A stretch of DNA of 46,076 nt from Planctomycetota bacterium (GTDB taxonomy: Bacteria > Planctomycetota > Phycisphaerae > Sedimentisphaerales > Anaerohalosphaeraceae): NCBI GenBank assembly GCA_019456225.1, contig VRUI01000036.1:1-46076 (forward strand). The letters are read 5' to 3'. Shown one piece after another: positions 7,070 through 28,475 of this stretch (the stretch's first letter is position 1; each line of letters opens with the position of its first letter). Both the position numbers and the translations under genes were made by a program. The notes under the pieces are model-generated. The model searched no databases. It was not told where the DNA came from and saw only the letters and a list, made by a program, of their open reading frames with translations.

Positions 7070-7196
7070 ACGGTAATTATAACCGCGGATTCCGCGGATT
7101 ACACGGATTATTTTTTAGATCAAAAATTAAAAATCAAAAGGCAAAATGACAAATCAAAATTTAAAATGCTGTCAGCAGGATGCCGATATTACGGGG

Positions 7197-7556
7197 TTAG
7201 GCTGAAATTGCGTCGGCTATGCAGTATAGGATTATTCCGTAGAAGAGTGGCATTAGGAATATTGCTATTGCTGCTCCGAGTGAATCGTAACTGAGTCCGT
7301 ACAGCATCTTGGTTATCTCTATTACGGTTGCTAGTATGACTGCTGCTATGAAGTGTTTTTTGCAAGCCTTGATATACCCGACAAAGCCTCCGCTCCTGTA
7401 TGACGCCAGTCCCAGTGAACCGCCGACAACGACGACAAATATTATTGAAGGAAAACATATAAACAGCTGATAATCGCTTCCACAGAGAATAGCTCCGGTT
7501 ATTGCAATGATAAATAATAAAATTCCCAGAACAATATGGATCGTATTTGCTTTCAT
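7197..7556 (-). CDS. Mini-MotA-like membrane protein, copy 2
   Basis: A 119-residue protein with four predicted membrane segments: residues about 8-28, 33-50, 70-88 and 95-115. The middle FPSIIFVVVVGGSLGLASYR resembles the MotA segment DPPSLLIVIGGTLGA, and the final FLMPLFYGIILYCIADAI resembles the MotA TM4 ALLTTFYGAILAN. The cytoplasmic loop that separates these pairs in MotA is reduced to about 20 residues. It is a tandem paralogue of the gene at 7608-7970, sharing the C-terminus YGIILYCIADAISA and the leader GGAxCCAAAATG. Ion-channel function is inference; this copy has lost the TVIG..QML match kept in its neighbour. Confidence 0.6.
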   Translation of the reverse strand: MKANTIHIVLGILLFIIAITGAILCGSDYQLFICFPSIIFVVVVGGSLGLASYRSGGFVGYIKACKKHFIAAVILATVIEITKMLYGLSYDSLGAAIAIFLMPLFYGIILYCIADAISA

Positions 7557-7607
7557 TTTGGCTCCTATTGATTAGGATTTTGTGAGCATACGGCCTACCC
7601 TACAGGA

Positions 7608-7970
7608 TCATGCAGATATTGCGTCTGCTATGCAGTATAGGATTATTCCGTAAAAGACTGCCAGTAGGCCTACTGCTACTTCGGCGCCTATCGAATCGGG
7701 GCTGCTTAGACCTTGCAGCATCTGGATTACGCCTATTACGGTTCCGAGTATGCCTGCGGACATGAAGTGTTTTTTGCATGCGGTGATGTACTTAATAAAT
7801 CCGCCGCCTCTGTATGATGCCAGTCCCAGTGATCCGCCGACAACGACCACAAATATCATTGATGGAATATGGAAGAACATCAGAGCGCCGCCGTCCAGAT
7901 ATATCGTTGCTATTATGATGCCGATAAATATGAAAATGCCAATTATTATAAAGATCGGGTTTCGTTTCAT
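7608..7970 (-). CDS. Mini-MotA-like membrane protein, copy 1
   Basis: A 120-residue four-helix membrane protein. IPSMIFVVVVGGSLGLASYR matches MotA TM2, and GTVIGVIQMLQGLSSPDSIG followed by AVGLLAVFYGIILYCI matches the MotA TM3-TM4 signature (TVxGLIxML..L.dP..IG..mA.ALLtTfYG). The long cytoplasmic domain of MotA that contacts the flagellar switch is missing, so a stator role is unlikely. It is the upstream and more conserved member of a tandem pair; ribosome-binding site GGAACC lies 4 bases before the ATG. No MotB/ExbD-like partner is visible nearby. Confidence 0.6.
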   Translation of the reverse strand: MKRNPIFIIIGIFIFIGIIIATIYLDGGALMFFHIPSMIFVVVVGGSLGLASYRGGGFIKYITACKKHFMSAGILGTVIGVIQMLQGLSSPDSIGAEVAVGLLAVFYGIILYCIADAISA

Positions 7971-23592: not shown

Positions 23593-23937
23593 ATGGGTAT
23601 TCAGAACTGGTCTGACGAAATTATCTTGATCAATCTTGGGCAGGAGCCTCAGATGGGCGAAGAATTACAGACTGCGATCGATCTTACCGGAGACGATAAT
23701 TGCCGCGATATTGTGCTGGATTTATCAGTAGTTGACATAGTTACCTCTTCGAGCATCGCTAAAATGCTCAAACTTCGCAAGGAACTCGGCGAGCGTCAGA
23801 GGCGACTTGTCTTTTGCAGTGTCAGCAGACAGACAATGAATCTTTTCAAGGTAGTCGCTCTTGATACGGTTTTTGAGTTTGCCGAAAACCAGTTTGTTGC
23901 CCTCGCCTCGCTGCAGATGGTTGCAAGCGAAAAGTGA
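23593..23937 (+). CDS. STAS-domain anti-sigma factor antagonist-like protein
   Basis: A 114-residue single STAS domain. The central DIVLDLSVVDIVTSSSIAKMLKLRKEL is the SpoIIAA-type core: strand, DxSxVxxxxSxxI loop with a serine cluster at the phosphorylation site (about residues 52-56), then the second helix. VFCSVSRQTMNLFKVVALDTVFEFAEN completes the fold. Such proteins bind anti-sigma factors or regulate kinases depending on Ser phosphorylation. AAAGGA lies 7 bases before the ATG. No anti-sigma factor is adjacent. Confidence 0.85.
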   Translation: MGIQNWSDEIILINLGQEPQMGEELQTAIDLTGDDNCRDIVLDLSVVDIVTSSSIAKMLKLRKELGERQRRLVFCSVSRQTMNLFKVVALDTVFEFAENQFVALASLQMVASEK

Positions 23938-24089
23938 CAGGTGCGGTGCGGGGCGATCTTTTTTTTTGGTTGACAAAGTCATTTTTGGTTTATATAATTG
24001 TTTTGTAATGTATTGGCAAGCCGATCTCGAAACTCGCATTACTGGCGGTTTTCGAAATCTGCTCGCGGTTTATCACAGGATTCCGCCGG

Positions 24090-24797
24090 ATGAAAGAAAG
24101 TAATTTAGGGCAGCTTGAAGAGTTGCTCGGATATCAATTCAAGGACCAGTCACTTCTCGTTAAAGCGATGACTCATTCATCGCTTGCCGACAATCGTTCA
24201 GACAGCAACGAAAGGCTTGAGTTTTTCGGAGACGCGATACTTGACCTGGTGATCTGCGAGACACTTTTTGAACGTTTTCCTCAGTACCAGGAGGGCGATT
24301 TGACGAAGATCAAGAGCATGCTCGTTTCGCGTAAGACTTGTTCAAGGGTCGCCATGGGGCTGGACTTTTCACGTTTTGCGAAAGTCGGAAAAGGTATGGA
24401 AAAGACGCGTGCTATGGCAGGTTCGATCTCTGCGGGTATCTTTGAGGCGATAGTTGCCGCGATCTATCTTGACGGTGGGCAGGCGGCGGCGAGGGAGTTT
24501 ATCCTGCGATTGTTTAACCCGCTGATCAATAAGGCAAACTCGCGTCAGCATCACGAAAACTTCAAGTCACTTCTTCAGCAGCACTGCCAGCGAAGATACT
24601 CGACGACTCCGGATTATCTCCTTCTTGATGAGAAGGGGCCTGACCATAATAAGTGTTTCGAGATTGGGATCGTTATCGAGCATCGACATTTTCCGACGGC
24701 GTGGGGGGTAACAAAAAAAGACGCCGAACAGAAAGCGGCGTTCATGACGCTGGTGGAACTGGGGGTACTGGAGCCGGAAGAACCAGCTGAGGAGTAG
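24090..24797 (+). CDS. rnc: Ribonuclease III
   Basis: A 235-residue dsRNA endonuclease for rRNA processing and mRNA turnover. Catalytic domain: THSSLAD, NERLEFFGDAILDLVICE (the signature nonamer, with Glu and Asp metal ligands near residues 40-48), and GIFEAIVAAIYLDGGQ with the second Glu/Asp set. The dsRNA-binding domain follows: NFKSLLQQHCQRRYSTTPDY, GPDHNKCFEIGIVI and WGVTKKDAEQKAAFMTL. Length is normal. The start follows AGGA with a long spacer. Immediately downstream are tandem dispersed repeats (24821-25030). Confidence 0.95.
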   Translation: MKESNLGQLEELLGYQFKDQSLLVKAMTHSSLADNRSDSNERLEFFGDAILDLVICETLFERFPQYQEGDLTKIKSMLVSRKTCSRVAMGLDFSRFAKVGKGMEKTRAMAGSISAGIFEAIVAAIYLDGGQAAAREFILRLFNPLINKANSRQHHENFKSLLQQHCQRRYSTTPDYLLLDEKGPDHNKCFEIGIVIEHRHFPTAWGVTKKDAEQKAAFMTLVELGVLEPEEPAEE

Positions 24798-24820
24798 CGA
24801 TCAGCCGCGTTCGCACTTAC

Positions 24821-24908
24821 TTCCTTATTCGATATTCCTTGTTGGATATTGGCTATTCGTTCTTGTGATCTGAATATCCAATAACGAATAAGGAATAACC
24901 AATAACCA
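24821..24908. repeat. Inverted-repeat hairpin unit, first copy
   Basis: Arm 24821-24859 (TTCCTTATTCGATATTCCTT onward) and arm 24872-24908 (GAATATCCAATAACGAATAA onward) are imperfect reverse complements over about 38 bases and would form a long AT-rich hairpin. A second unit follows at 24941. Confidence 0.8.
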
Positions 24909-24940
24909 AATAAAAGCACTCTGACCTGTTCGTTTTTTAC

Positions 24941-25030
24941 TTCCTTGTTCGATATTCCTTGTTGGATATTGGCTATTCGCTTTTAACGACCTGGATATCC
25001 AATAACGAACAAGGAATAACCAATAACCAA
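24941..25030. repeat. Inverted-repeat hairpin unit, second copy
   Basis: Arms 24941-24979 and 24993-25030 nearly repeat the unit at 24821-24908 in sequence and spacing. Both units are preceded by a similar TTCG....TTAC spacer. The same arm occurs alone at 11762-11799 and, in the other orientation, at 25502-25533. Confidence 0.8.
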
Positions 25031-25049
25031 AAGAGAAACTTTAAACCAT

Positions 25050-25454
25050 TCACCTTTTCCCATCATTGAGTTTCTTTTTTGAGGTCTCTATACTCTTGAA
25101 CATAATTGAGATCAGTTCATTCGTTTCCTCAAGCAATGGAGAAAGTTTTGACATGGGCTGAACCATTCCAGACCTGGCAATGACTTTTAGCCACACTTCA
25201 GTTTCCCACAATTCCTTCAGAGCCAGTTTTAGCTTATGAATAAAATCCGGTCTTGACTCTGCACTTTGAGCTTCACCATAGTTAGCAGCAGGAGACGTTC
25301 CGCTTCTTAATATCTGAGAACATATATGATTACCCGCTTTTGTATTAGGAAGAACTTCAGTAACCTTGATAATACTGACCGAATAATCAACAAATCGATC
25401 TTGTAAATCAAACTTCTTCTTACCGTTACAATCTTTACTGTAATTGTCCTTCAC
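25050..25454 (-). CDS. Four-helix-bundle protein (S23/IVP family)
   Basis: A 134-residue protein of the four-helix-bundle family first seen as S23 in intervening sequences of 23S rRNA and related to the avd accessory protein of diversity-generating retroelements. Signature: FDLQDRFVDYSVSIIKVTEVLP, ICSQILRSGTSPAANYGEAQSAES, then DFIHKLKLALKELWETEVWLKVI. I favour a GTG start at 25454 because AGAAAGGA lies about 8 bases upstream; a TTG at 25478 is possible but lacks one. The gene is bracketed by dispersed repeats ending 20 bases after its stop (24993-25030) and beginning 47 bases before its start (25502-25533), as if gene and repeats move together. Function unknown. Confidence 0.85.
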   Translation of the reverse strand: MKDNYSKDCNGKKKFDLQDRFVDYSVSIIKVTEVLPNTKAGNHICSQILRSGTSPAANYGEAQSAESRPDFIHKLKLALKELWETEVWLKVIARSGMVQPMSKLSPLLEETNELISIMFKSIETSKKKLNDGKR

Positions 25455-25501
25455 AAATAACGAATCCTTTCTAAGCAATGTTGCCAGATTTTCCCTTCAT
25501 C

Positions 25502-25533
25502 ATTCGATATTCCTTGTTGGATATTGGCTATTC
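25502..25533 (-). repeat. Dispersed repeat arm upstream of four-helix-bundle gene
   Basis: A single arm (ATTCGATATTCCTTGTTGG onward) nearly identical to 24828-24857 and 24948-24977. It is in inverted orientation relative to the arm at 24993-25030 on the other side of the gene. Confidence 0.8.
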
Positions 25534-25544
25534 ATTTTTTTTGA

Positions 25545-25793
25545 TTAGCTTGTTATGAAGGCTACCAGTATATTTAGTCCTACGCCGGCTAAAATCAGGA
25601 ATATGCTGATCGTTAAAAATAGAACAACAACTTCCTTGATGAATATTTTTGGGAAGATGACTCTCAGTTTTGTCGCTTTGTAGACGATCGCTATAGACAA
25701 GATAAGAGGGAACATCCAGAGCATCGAAGCGGGGGATGTTGGGATGTCTATTGGCGACATAAAACCGGCTAGTATGATTGAAATGCTATTCAT
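25545..25793 (-). CDS. Small membrane protein, unknown
   Basis: An 82-residue protein with two hydrophobic helices (about residues 22-38 and 54-78) joined by a basic loop YKATKLRVIFPKIFIK. It overlaps the end of the upstream membrane-protein gene by 8 bases (25786-25793), placing it third in a coupled operon with the PpiD-like gene. I recognise no family. Confidence 0.7.
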   Translation of the reverse strand: MNSISIILAGFMSPIDIPTSPASMLWMFPLILSIAIVYKATKLRVIFPKIFIKEVVVLFLTISIFLILAGVGLNILVAFITS

Positions 25794-26217
25794 CTTCTTC
25801 GCTCCCGATCATCTCGCCGCGACCGCTGTGTGCCATATAAACAGCACTTAAGATCGCCAGCAGGTTCAATGCTCCTGCGATGGCGGTGTATATTTGTCCG
25901 TAGTCATGCGGGTTTCCGTAGCTTACAATCCCTACCATTTCTCCGTTCGGGTCCATTTGCTTAATATTTGCCAGCAGGGATACCCCAGGCGTTGTGAGCA
26001 TCTGGCCGATGTACCATGGCCATGCTCCGGGCGGGTCAATTACGCCTACCGAGCCGATATAGAGACCGACTGCAAAAGTCAGCGTTATCGTCACGAAAAT
26101 GATCGCGGCGCGTTTTTTCTCCTTGATGAAGAAATGTCCGCCGCCTGGAACGATCCATGCAAGGATCGCCACGATCAGCAGTAAAAGCCCATGGTCCATA
26201 TCGCTGCGCTTAGCCAT
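25786..26217 (-). CDS. Membrane protein, probably DUF6677-like
   Basis: A 143-residue membrane protein with helices at about 9-27, 35-57 and 110-130. The opening LLLIVAILAWIVPGGGHFFIKEKKRAAIIF resembles small Planctomycetota membrane proteins annotated DUF6677 (LAWLVPGxGHxxxGxxxRA); I am not certain of that name. The end is acidic (GSEEDE). The start shares one base with the stop of the PpiD-like gene (TAATG), so it is translationally coupled. A role in membrane protein folding next to the chaperone is a guess. Confidence 0.7.
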   Translation of the reverse strand: MAKRSDMDHGLLLLIVAILAWIVPGGGHFFIKEKKRAAIIFVTITLTFAVGLYIGSVGVIDPPGAWPWYIGQMLTTPGVSLLANIKQMDPNGEMVGIVSYGNPHDYGQIYTAIAGALNLLAILSAVYMAHSGRGEMIGSEEDE

Positions 26218-28475
26218 TAAGCATCTCCGTCTTTGTCGGTTTTGTCTTTATCTTCTTCGCTGTCGCCGTCTTTTGGCTCTTCAGAGTCGCTTGCCGTGGC
26301 GGTCCACTCGAATCCCATGCGTTCGATGATGTTATCCGGCGAGAAATGTATCAGAGCAAGGCTGTCACTGCGGCTTGCGTCCAGGTTGTAGGCAGTCATT
26401 GCTTTGCTTTTTTCGTAATCGTCTATAGTGACCCGCGAACGGGATACTTTTTTTACTACGTAGCATGCTCTCTCTGCCGGGGACTCTATGATGACGCTCA
26501 GGTCATTGGCGTCTGTCTCGTCTGCTGGTATGAGTCCATAAAGCTTCTCATTTAGCAGTTCTTCAGCAGCTCTCCACCTGATCGTATTCTGTGTTAGAGA
26601 AACGTTCATTCCCGCTGTGCGTATTTCAAAGTCCTTCTTGTCGCGCAGCGAAGATCTTGTTTTCTCCTGCGGCGCTGAAAGACTTATTTGTCCGACGCTT
26701 ACTTCTTTGCCGGCGAGCGAGTCGTTAAACTCTTCGATGGCTTTTTCCCAATCATCCTTAGTTTCGAGTAAACTGACAAATTCTTCTGCTAGTTCTTTTG
26801 CGATCTTTACAGAGGCTTGATCTTTGAGGTCCTTGATGACGTCATCTTTAACGTTGTAGATGTTTTCGGATAAAATTATGCTCTCATCGAGAACGACACT
26901 TTTAATGTCGTAGGAATGTTCAAGATTCTCCGGTACATATTCTTTATTGGCTTCTACAACTCTGACCAGTGCGACCATACTTGAATACCGGTCCTTTAGC
27001 GGGCCGATATTTTGCCACATATTCGGTTTTGCCGGATCGAACCTTCCCAGTTTTGTTATCCCCAGTTCGTCGACGGCAAAAAGGATCTTGTCGAGTCCCA
27101 GACCTGCCGTGCTTCTTGTTGACGGTAACTGCAGCGTGCGAAGGTTCGGGTCGCTGAATATCATTTCTTCACTTAGTTTGCCGGTCGTGCCGGTGTGGAC
27201 TGTAACACCGTGTTCCTCTGCGATTGCCTTGGCGACAGCTTTATAATCGGCGGAGTGTTCCTTATATAACTCGCTGGTAGGCTTTTGCATGTCAATGCCT
27301 GCAAAACCTTCGTCGGCGGCGTCGACTACGTTGATCATTATCTGGTCGGCTTTAATTGAGGTGTTTTGGCGTGTTAGAATTCCGCGTATTCCGGCGGCAA
27401 CATCGGAGTAATCCTTTGTAACGGGTATTTTATCACCGTCCGGTTCATTGGGGTCAACAGGTTCCTCGCTGGTGTAAGTCTGCAGATTGTCACGGTAGTA
27501 ATCTTCCATGTCCTGTGCGGTGGGCTGATCAATAACTTTCTCGATATCTTTAAGCTTGACGATTATATATTCGAAGACAACTGCCGCAGGCTGCTTGTAT
27601 CCGAAACCGTAAGGGTTTTCTTTTGTGTAAACTCCGGGTGTGAAGTCTTTGTACTTGTCGAATTGAGCGGCAATCTCATCATCGGTCGGTTCGGGCAGAT
27701 TCGGTTCGATCGGACTGACCTGAAACCTGACCATCTCGGCTTTGATCTTTTCTCCGTCAAGGCCCATAAGCGATTGAACCTGTGCGATAGTTGTATCTTC
27801 GTTGGTAAGTATGGTTTTGGCATATTCGGATACGGCGAGAAGGTCCGAGAAAATTGATACAATCTCGTCGGAGCGTTTTTGGTAACGATTTGAGATAGCG
27901 CCTACCAGCGTTGCCGCATCCATATTTCGACCTGAAAAGATAGGCACCATATCCCTTAGAAGGCCTTTGGTTGCTGCGTCAGATATGGCGATGCCGGCGT
28001 TTTTGGCTTCGGCTTTCAGGAGCAGCCAGCGAATGTCATTTCTTCCTTCCAGTTGCATGAAGAACGAATCGATTTGCTGAGCCGATGCCTGGAGACTGTT
28101 TTGCTGCATTGACATTGCAAAATACTTCAGTCGCCTGTTTTCTTCAGCGGCCATCCTGGGGTCGGGAAAGAGAACCTGCGACAGGAGCAAGTCTTTCGTG
28201 TTACGATTACCTTGCCGATCGACCCTGTTAAGGTAATCGACGGCCATCAGTTCTTGCAGTATCTTAAGCTCGGTCCCTGCGTTGAAAATTTCGGTAGAAG
28301 TGACCTTTACATTGTCTCCGTAGACCGCGACGGATTTACCCGAACTGAACCATCGGTTGATTTGATTTATGATCGGGCGAAGCGAAGATCCCAGAACAAA
28401 ACCTACCATAATAAAGATGAGCAAAAAGACCATGATCTTATTGCTGTTTTTCCGCATTGACTTTATTAGACTCAT
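26217..28475 (-). CDS. SurA/PpiD-like periplasmic folding factor
   Basis: A 752-residue protein with a PpiD-type layout: a short cytoplasmic start (SLIKSMRKNSNKIM), one membrane helix at about 14-32, then a long periplasmic part with the SurA_N-like region (SVAVYGDNVKVTSTEIFNAG, RRLKYFAMSMQQNSLQASAQ). The later stretch could hold a divergent parvulin domain, but I do not see a clear catalytic signature, so chaperone without isomerase activity is possible. The C-terminus is extremely acidic (SEEPKDGDSEEDKDKTDKDGDA region). AAAGGTAG precedes the ATG. It heads a three-gene minus-strand operon with two small membrane proteins. Confidence 0.75.
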   Translation of the reverse strand: MSLIKSMRKNSNKIMVFLLIFIMVGFVLGSSLRPIINQINRWFSSGKSVAVYGDNVKVTSTEIFNAGTELKILQELMAVDYLNRVDRQGNRNTKDLLLSQVLFPDPRMAAEENRRLKYFAMSMQQNSLQASAQQIDSFFMQLEGRNDIRWLLLKAEAKNAGIAISDAATKGLLRDMVPIFSGRNMDAATLVGAISNRYQKRSDEIVSIFSDLLAVSEYAKTILTNEDTTIAQVQSLMGLDGEKIKAEMVRFQVSPIEPNLPEPTDDEIAAQFDKYKDFTPGVYTKENPYGFGYKQPAAVVFEYIIVKLKDIEKVIDQPTAQDMEDYYRDNLQTYTSEEPVDPNEPDGDKIPVTKDYSDVAAGIRGILTRQNTSIKADQIMINVVDAADEGFAGIDMQKPTSELYKEHSADYKAVAKAIAEEHGVTVHTGTTGKLSEEMIFSDPNLRTLQLPSTRSTAGLGLDKILFAVDELGITKLGRFDPAKPNMWQNIGPLKDRYSSMVALVRVVEANKEYVPENLEHSYDIKSVVLDESIILSENIYNVKDDVIKDLKDQASVKIAKELAEEFVSLLETKDDWEKAIEEFNDSLAGKEVSVGQISLSAPQEKTRSSLRDKKDFEIRTAGMNVSLTQNTIRWRAAEELLNEKLYGLIPADETDANDLSVIIESPAERACYVVKKVSRSRVTIDDYEKSKAMTAYNLDASRSDSLALIHFSPDNIIERMGFEWTATASDSEEPKDGDSEEDKDKTDKDGDA

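Follow-up and report, generated by a model that had tools for sequence, protein, structure and literature searches.

The window analysed here, a stretch of 46,076 nucleotides from a Planctomycetota bacterium (contig VRUI01000036.1), carries a small gene of the S23-like family enclosed by inverted arrays of a short repeat. The features at this locus, and related arrays elsewhere in the window, are:

24798-25547: insertion that separates rnc from a small membrane ORF, 747 nt long compared with -11 to 125 nt in 11 syntenic relatives
24821-24908: hairpin unit 1, two 7-nt arrays facing each other in inverted orientation over a short distance, with no gene (fold z -4.0 and -6.8 for its strands)
24941-25030: hairpin unit 2, built in the same way from 7-nt arrays and also gene-less (fold z -4.0 and -5.8 for its strands)
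24992-25031, minus strand: 7-nt periodic arm downstream of the S23 gene, doubling as the 3' half of hairpin unit 2
25050-25454, minus strand: S23-like four-helix-bundle gene (PF05635/TIGR02436), a likely coding sequence with a GTG start behind AAAGGA, its frame open to about 25496
25502-25533, plus strand: arm upstream of the S23 gene in gene orientation, 48 nt ahead of the start codon
11756-11812, minus strand: solo 7-nt array with the same spelling as the window arms, upstream of argS
7113-7168: solo 7-nt array that is spelled differently (AATCAAA type)
7081-7110: solo 9-nt array (CCGCGGATT/ACACGGATT), with the unit length found around GxxExxY genes

The original prediction had placed the two hairpins, the inverted arm and the solo arm ahead of argS correctly, and its reading of the gene as S23-like is borne out by matches to PF05635 (3.7e-15) and to TIGR02436, 'four helix bundle protein' (1.8e-24). 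It missed the 7-nt periodicity, the double role of the arm at 24992-25031 and the genome-wide dispersal of the spelling. The solved structures nearest to the encoded protein are 2RLD (2.5e-16) and 2GSC, which is protein XCC0516 from Xanthomonas; the S23p protein of Xanthomonas has been described as a homopentamer (PMC4990558).

Sequence comparisons within the window show five copies of the 20-mer GATATTCCTTGTTGGATATT (up to three mismatches) where shuffles give an expectation of 0, and the repeat is built up by consecutive heptamers (ATATCCA ATAACGA ACAAGGA ATAACCA ATAACC). Four lag-7 arrays were found in the window and none in the shuffles. In the minimum free energy fold of the RNA from the S23 sense strand, 25502-25533 pairs with 24992-25031 across the ORF, and this second arm is used both by hairpin unit 2 and by the bracket of the S23 gene. 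An Rfam search of 23900-26300 rendered only sub-threshold matches to miRNA hairpins, none of them ribosomal, and a promoter and terminator scan gave nothing exceeding shuffles. At 7081-7168 the solo 9-nt array is followed directly by the solo 7-nt array of different spelling, with a tRNA-queuosine mannosyltransferase-like gene and a small ORF as neighbours.

The order rnc, small ORF, DUF6677 is kept in 11 relatives, where the gap has no S23 gene and measures -11 to 125 nt compared with 747 nt in the source genome. The empty sites that the original prediction proposed to look for are therefore present at the window junction, and they were also found in some relatives at gspE|gspF. The unit lies directly behind rnc (24090-24797), the gene of the enzyme that excises its relatives from rRNA; this position is probably a coincidence because the relatives lack the unit at that junction.

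The window spelling itself is dispersed. It forms 76 arms in 53 clusters genome-wide (at most 2 mismatches), most of them solo arms and not pairs, and of these clusters the one in the window alone lies close to an S23 gene. Enrichment of this spelling near S23 genes, as originally proposed, was not found, with 1 of 53 clusters within 1 kb against 0.11 expected (P ~0.10). Among 39 relatives, five have 1-9 copies and the rest have none. The source genome has four S23 genes, one broken by a stop, and the other three are flanked by repeats unlike the window spelling. Although the arms lie within 20-50 nt of the window gene on both sides, the idea that S23 genes have this repeat family as their terminal repeat and move together with it is refuted as stated and has almost no remaining probability: there are 76 arms yet one S23 locus, a coincidence with a chance P of ~0.10, and the genome's other S23 genes are spelled otherwise.

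Direct reading of the flanks of other S23 genes gave a different picture, with simple 7-nt units on both sides, the two sides being mirror images and the spelling specific to the locus. In the source genome the unit is 7 for the window gene, for the gene on contig C72 and for the bracket of the gene between tRNA-Met and tRNA-Glu (C23), and it is 8, clear on the upstream side only, for the gene behind tRNA-Pro (C38); all four genes thus fit the array-bracket rule. In the Planctomycete set the best-window lag-7 identity reaches 0.60 on the upstream side and 0.53 on the downstream side, where non-coding controls and shuffles give 0.38; peaks occur at lags 7 and 14 only. A second Planctomycete set has 31 of 43 loci at 7 and six more at 8, and in a cross-phylum set of GTDB genomes 60 of 73 loci reach a lag-7 identity of at least 0.6, compared with 0 in shuffles. 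Pooling of the distinct loci gives 154 of 179 with 7- or 8-nt periodic flanks (139 at 7, 15 more at 8 only), many of which pass on one side only, while neither flank exceeds the periodicity threshold in 25. Shuffles and other lags show no comparable periodicity, and the S23 homologue of a human-faecal phage (L404) has no arrays. These comparisons show that S23 genes across many phyla sit in inverted short-unit arrays in which the spelling varies by locus and the length is kept. The proposed link between S23 genes and inverted repeats consequently fails for the window spelling but stands for the class, at about 86% of the 179 loci.

The two arms of one locus resemble each other more than the arms of different loci. 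When the best ungapped match of the upstream arm to the reverse complement of the downstream arm was scored, own and mispaired loci gave 17.6 versus 9.0 in one set, 17.2 versus 9.6 in the cross-phylum set and 18.9 versus 8.7 in the second Planctomycete set. The difference persists among loci at the orthologous gspE|gspF junction (13.9 versus 9.0, permutation p=0.0002) and at leuC|leuD (p=0.008); the same-site test at ffs|dnaX, with 4 loci only, gave p=0.24. Because own pairs are still better within orthologous junctions, the arms change together after divergence, and at one site even two species of one genus differ in spelling (L260, L264). Either selection on pairing or mutational homogenisation could produce this co-variation.

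Selection on pairing would be expected if the arms were an RNA device, in which RNase III cuts the folded transcript, the S23 segment is excised and a polycistronic mRNA is split as the intervening sequence (IVS) splits 23S rRNA. The arms do pair across the ORF, they coevolve within one site, and RNase III excises the IVS of Coxiella (PMC4990558). The sense duplex is also slightly stronger than the antisense duplex (p=0.025), and the upstream neighbour is on the same strand as the S23 gene in 117 of 137 cases (85%) versus 146 of 209 controls (70%; p=0.0008), so that the unit mostly runs in the direction of the upstream gene. On the other hand, mismatches between arms are unbiased, with 166 of the G.U type versus 151 of the A.C type (p=0.43), a balance that speaks against fine selection acting on the sense RNA. 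Solo arrays make up most of the dispersed ones in the genomes sampled, and a device of this kind leaves unexplained why unit length follows gene family (see below). We therefore regard it as unlikely, though it is the stronger of the remaining alternatives.

The S23 gene with its arms behaves as an insertion unit between genes. Three states of the gspE|gspF junction were found side by side in related genera: empty, with gaps of 5-51 nt mostly without arrays; filled, with 423-529 nt arranged as arm, gene and arm; and remnant, with 51-357 nt of arrays without a gene. Genome G013, which has no S23 gene, retains a 79-nt hairpin there. Sites of S23 units include gspE|gspF, leuC|leuD, ffs|dnaX and argH|thiL, and atpA|atpG in Cerasicoccus, the gene names at junctions being assigned by eye from translated ends. 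Cultured hosts of S23 units include Nostoc sp. C052, Nostoc sp. ATCC 53789, Indibacter alkaliphilus and Cerasicoccus maritimus. The suggestion that gene and repeats may move as a unit with trans-acting machinery holds as far as insertion relative to empty sites is concerned; we observed neither a transposition event nor a mobilising enzyme, and could define no target-site duplication. On the weakly resolved tree, S23 genes that share a site often fall together, and much of the distribution may therefore be vertical.

Free arrays occur almost only where the genome also has S23 genes. In 20-kb stretches, one array was found in 800 kb from five S23-free genomes and 48 in 1184 kb from six S23-bearing genomes, where G+C (0.50-0.59 in the S23-free versus 0.44-0.53 in the S23-bearing) is a possible confounder and phylogeny is not fully controlled. 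A degenerate heptad pattern searched in 120 genomes of the class was found in 28 of 97 S23-bearing and 0 of 23 S23-free genomes (p=0.0018). In that search a single spelling recurs at many places of the same genome, which suggests that arrays spread inside genomes. Genome G012 has 8 S23 genes, yet no array in the 89 kb sampled. The association proposed at the outset thus receives a divided answer: the window spelling is dispersed, but gene-less arrays as a class are almost restricted to S23-bearing genomes.

These distributions bear on a passive origin, in which 7 nt is a slippage-prone length, arrays expand in intergenic gaps, template switching at quasi-palindromes makes the arms alike, and S23 genes merely tolerate the gaps. 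Heptamers are indeed known to be unusually frequent among the repeats of bacteria, and the footprint of a polymerase has been put forward as the reason (PMC4679880, PMC4692102). Such an origin is at odds with the near absence of arrays from S23-free relatives, with empty sites that lack arrays and with the 9-nt arrays around GxxExxY genes, and we consider it quite improbable.

Unit length follows the gene family. Within the S23 family, 8-nt arrays cluster on the tree, with 10 of 25 rows in one clade versus 2 of 117 elsewhere (p=4e-7), and the number of unit-length changes on the tree is 8 versus 11.7 when shuffled (0 of 500 shuffles as low); the 8-mer clustering could partly reflect descent of the DNA. 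Certain inverted array pairs enclose other ORFs or no ORF. Tracing of S23-less pairs led to a broken GxxExxY gene with an array pair around it (L320, about 7450-7950, G000:C47), identified by eye and by a PF13366 match at G000:C47. The notion that only S23 genes are bracketed by such arrays was accordingly rejected, as GxxExxY genes (PF13366) are bracketed by mainly 9-nt arrays: among 28 loci in relatives the dominant unit is 9 in 13, 10 in 5, 8 in 3, 7 in 0 and unclear in 7, which differs from the 7/8 of S23 at p=5e-14. Own arms exceed 95% of mispaired arms in 20 of the 28. Plasmid copies in Bacteroides and Gemmatirosa agree with the 9-nt rule. The inverted pair of the Bernardetia copy is less regular in its units, and in Treponema and Sphingomonas the arrays are weak or present on one side only. 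The two gene families also co-occur across genomes (p=0.003).

Among the known systems close to the S23 unit are the intervening sequences of 23S rRNA in Coxiella, Leptospira and Brucella, with which it shares the protein family and stem-forming terminal inverted repeats. The Coxiella IVS has an S23p ORF, a 28-bp terminal stem, excision by RNase III and three GACAGAT heptamers before the ORF, and the number of these tandem heptamers varies between strains (PMC4990558). The window unit has an S23p-family ORF and complementary ends forming a stem, but it lies between rnc and a small membrane ORF and not inside an rRNA gene. S23 units differ from the IVS in that they are found between protein-coding or tRNA genes, are numerous and have a locus-specific spelling.

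Heptameric simple sequence repeats, intergenic 7-nt arrays with genome-specific spelling as here, have been described as TAACTGA in Beggiatoaceae, Cyanobacteria and Bacteroidetes, GGGAATC in Xanthomonas, where about 70 close inverted pairs occur per genome, and GGGGA(T/C)T in Nostoc (PMC4679880, PMC4692102). We found no description of an S23 link, a gene bracket or an insertion unit in those papers, and the open-access literature covered contained nothing joining heptamer arrays to S23 genes. Xanthomonas and Nostoc, hosts of the described heptamers (PMC4692102), both carry S23-family genes.

REP/RAYT systems and MITEs are dispersed short palindromes with a gene-bearing version between the same repeats (PMC3733652), and S23 units are alike in this respect. 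Their termini are of fixed sequence, whereas those of S23 units are short-unit arrays. The GTAG/CGTC end tag of REP/RAYT was absent from the arm and hairpin sequences, which were read by eye, and among the loci encountered no transposase lay between the arms. The hairpin units resemble MITEs in being short, multicopy and ORF-less with inverted termini, though solo arms predominate among the copies.

The S23 family is related to Avd, which is likewise a four-helix-bundle protein. Avd has a role in diversity-generating retroelements (PMC10053308). RVT_1 is absent from five genomes with 5-9 S23 genes each (G012, G014, G023, G029 and G030), so dependence on a reverse transcriptase is excluded as a necessity and these S23 units do not qualify as such retroelements. 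The weakest PF05635 matches (G007:C311 and G035:C1:2054190) adjoin reverse transcriptase genes and are probably true Avd.

The explanation that we favour, by a small margin of confidence, is that the gene and its two arms form an intercistronic insertion unit similar to an IVS, with S23-less derivatives, whose protein sets or reads the unit length; its movement and biochemistry are inferred. On this view one insertion unit comprises a small gene of the S23-like family between inverted arrays whose unit is 7 nt, or 8 nt in some subclades, and would be a selfish element that may share descent with the S23-bearing IVS of 23S rRNA. It would settle between cistrons, where it is co-transcribed and tolerated, and gene-less hairpins and solo arms might be its non-autonomous derivatives. 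Its protein product, which forms a pentameric ring in a relative of solved structure, might set or read the unit length in trans, as is suggested by the mainly 9-nt arrays of GxxExxY genes.

A broader and more tentative proposal, to which we give somewhat less than an even chance, is a general class of minimal selfish bacterial elements consisting of one small gene in inverted short-unit arrays. The gene family would fix the unit length (7 or 8 for S23, 9 for the nuclease-like GxxExxY), the spelling would drift freely yet alike on both arms, and the protein would measure length and not sequence. PF05635 proteins have lacked a known role ever since rRNA intervening sequences were first found, and they now gain a genomic rule that is testable in culture. 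To our knowledge, no mobile element has the length of its DNA repeat unit set by a protein family, as would be the case here if the proposal is true. The data suggest that bracketed S23 genes represent a type of insertion unit that is widespread and, it appears, has not been described before.

Two minor observations concern the surroundings of these loci. S23 genes on Nostoc plasmids (L400, L441) adjoin XisH/XisI (element excision factor) genes. The palindrome GGATTCGGCCTTTGGCCGAG, which is terminator- or REP-like, often follows the arrays (L320, L321, L326 and L290, the gspE|gspF junction of G038) and is common to different families of the order.
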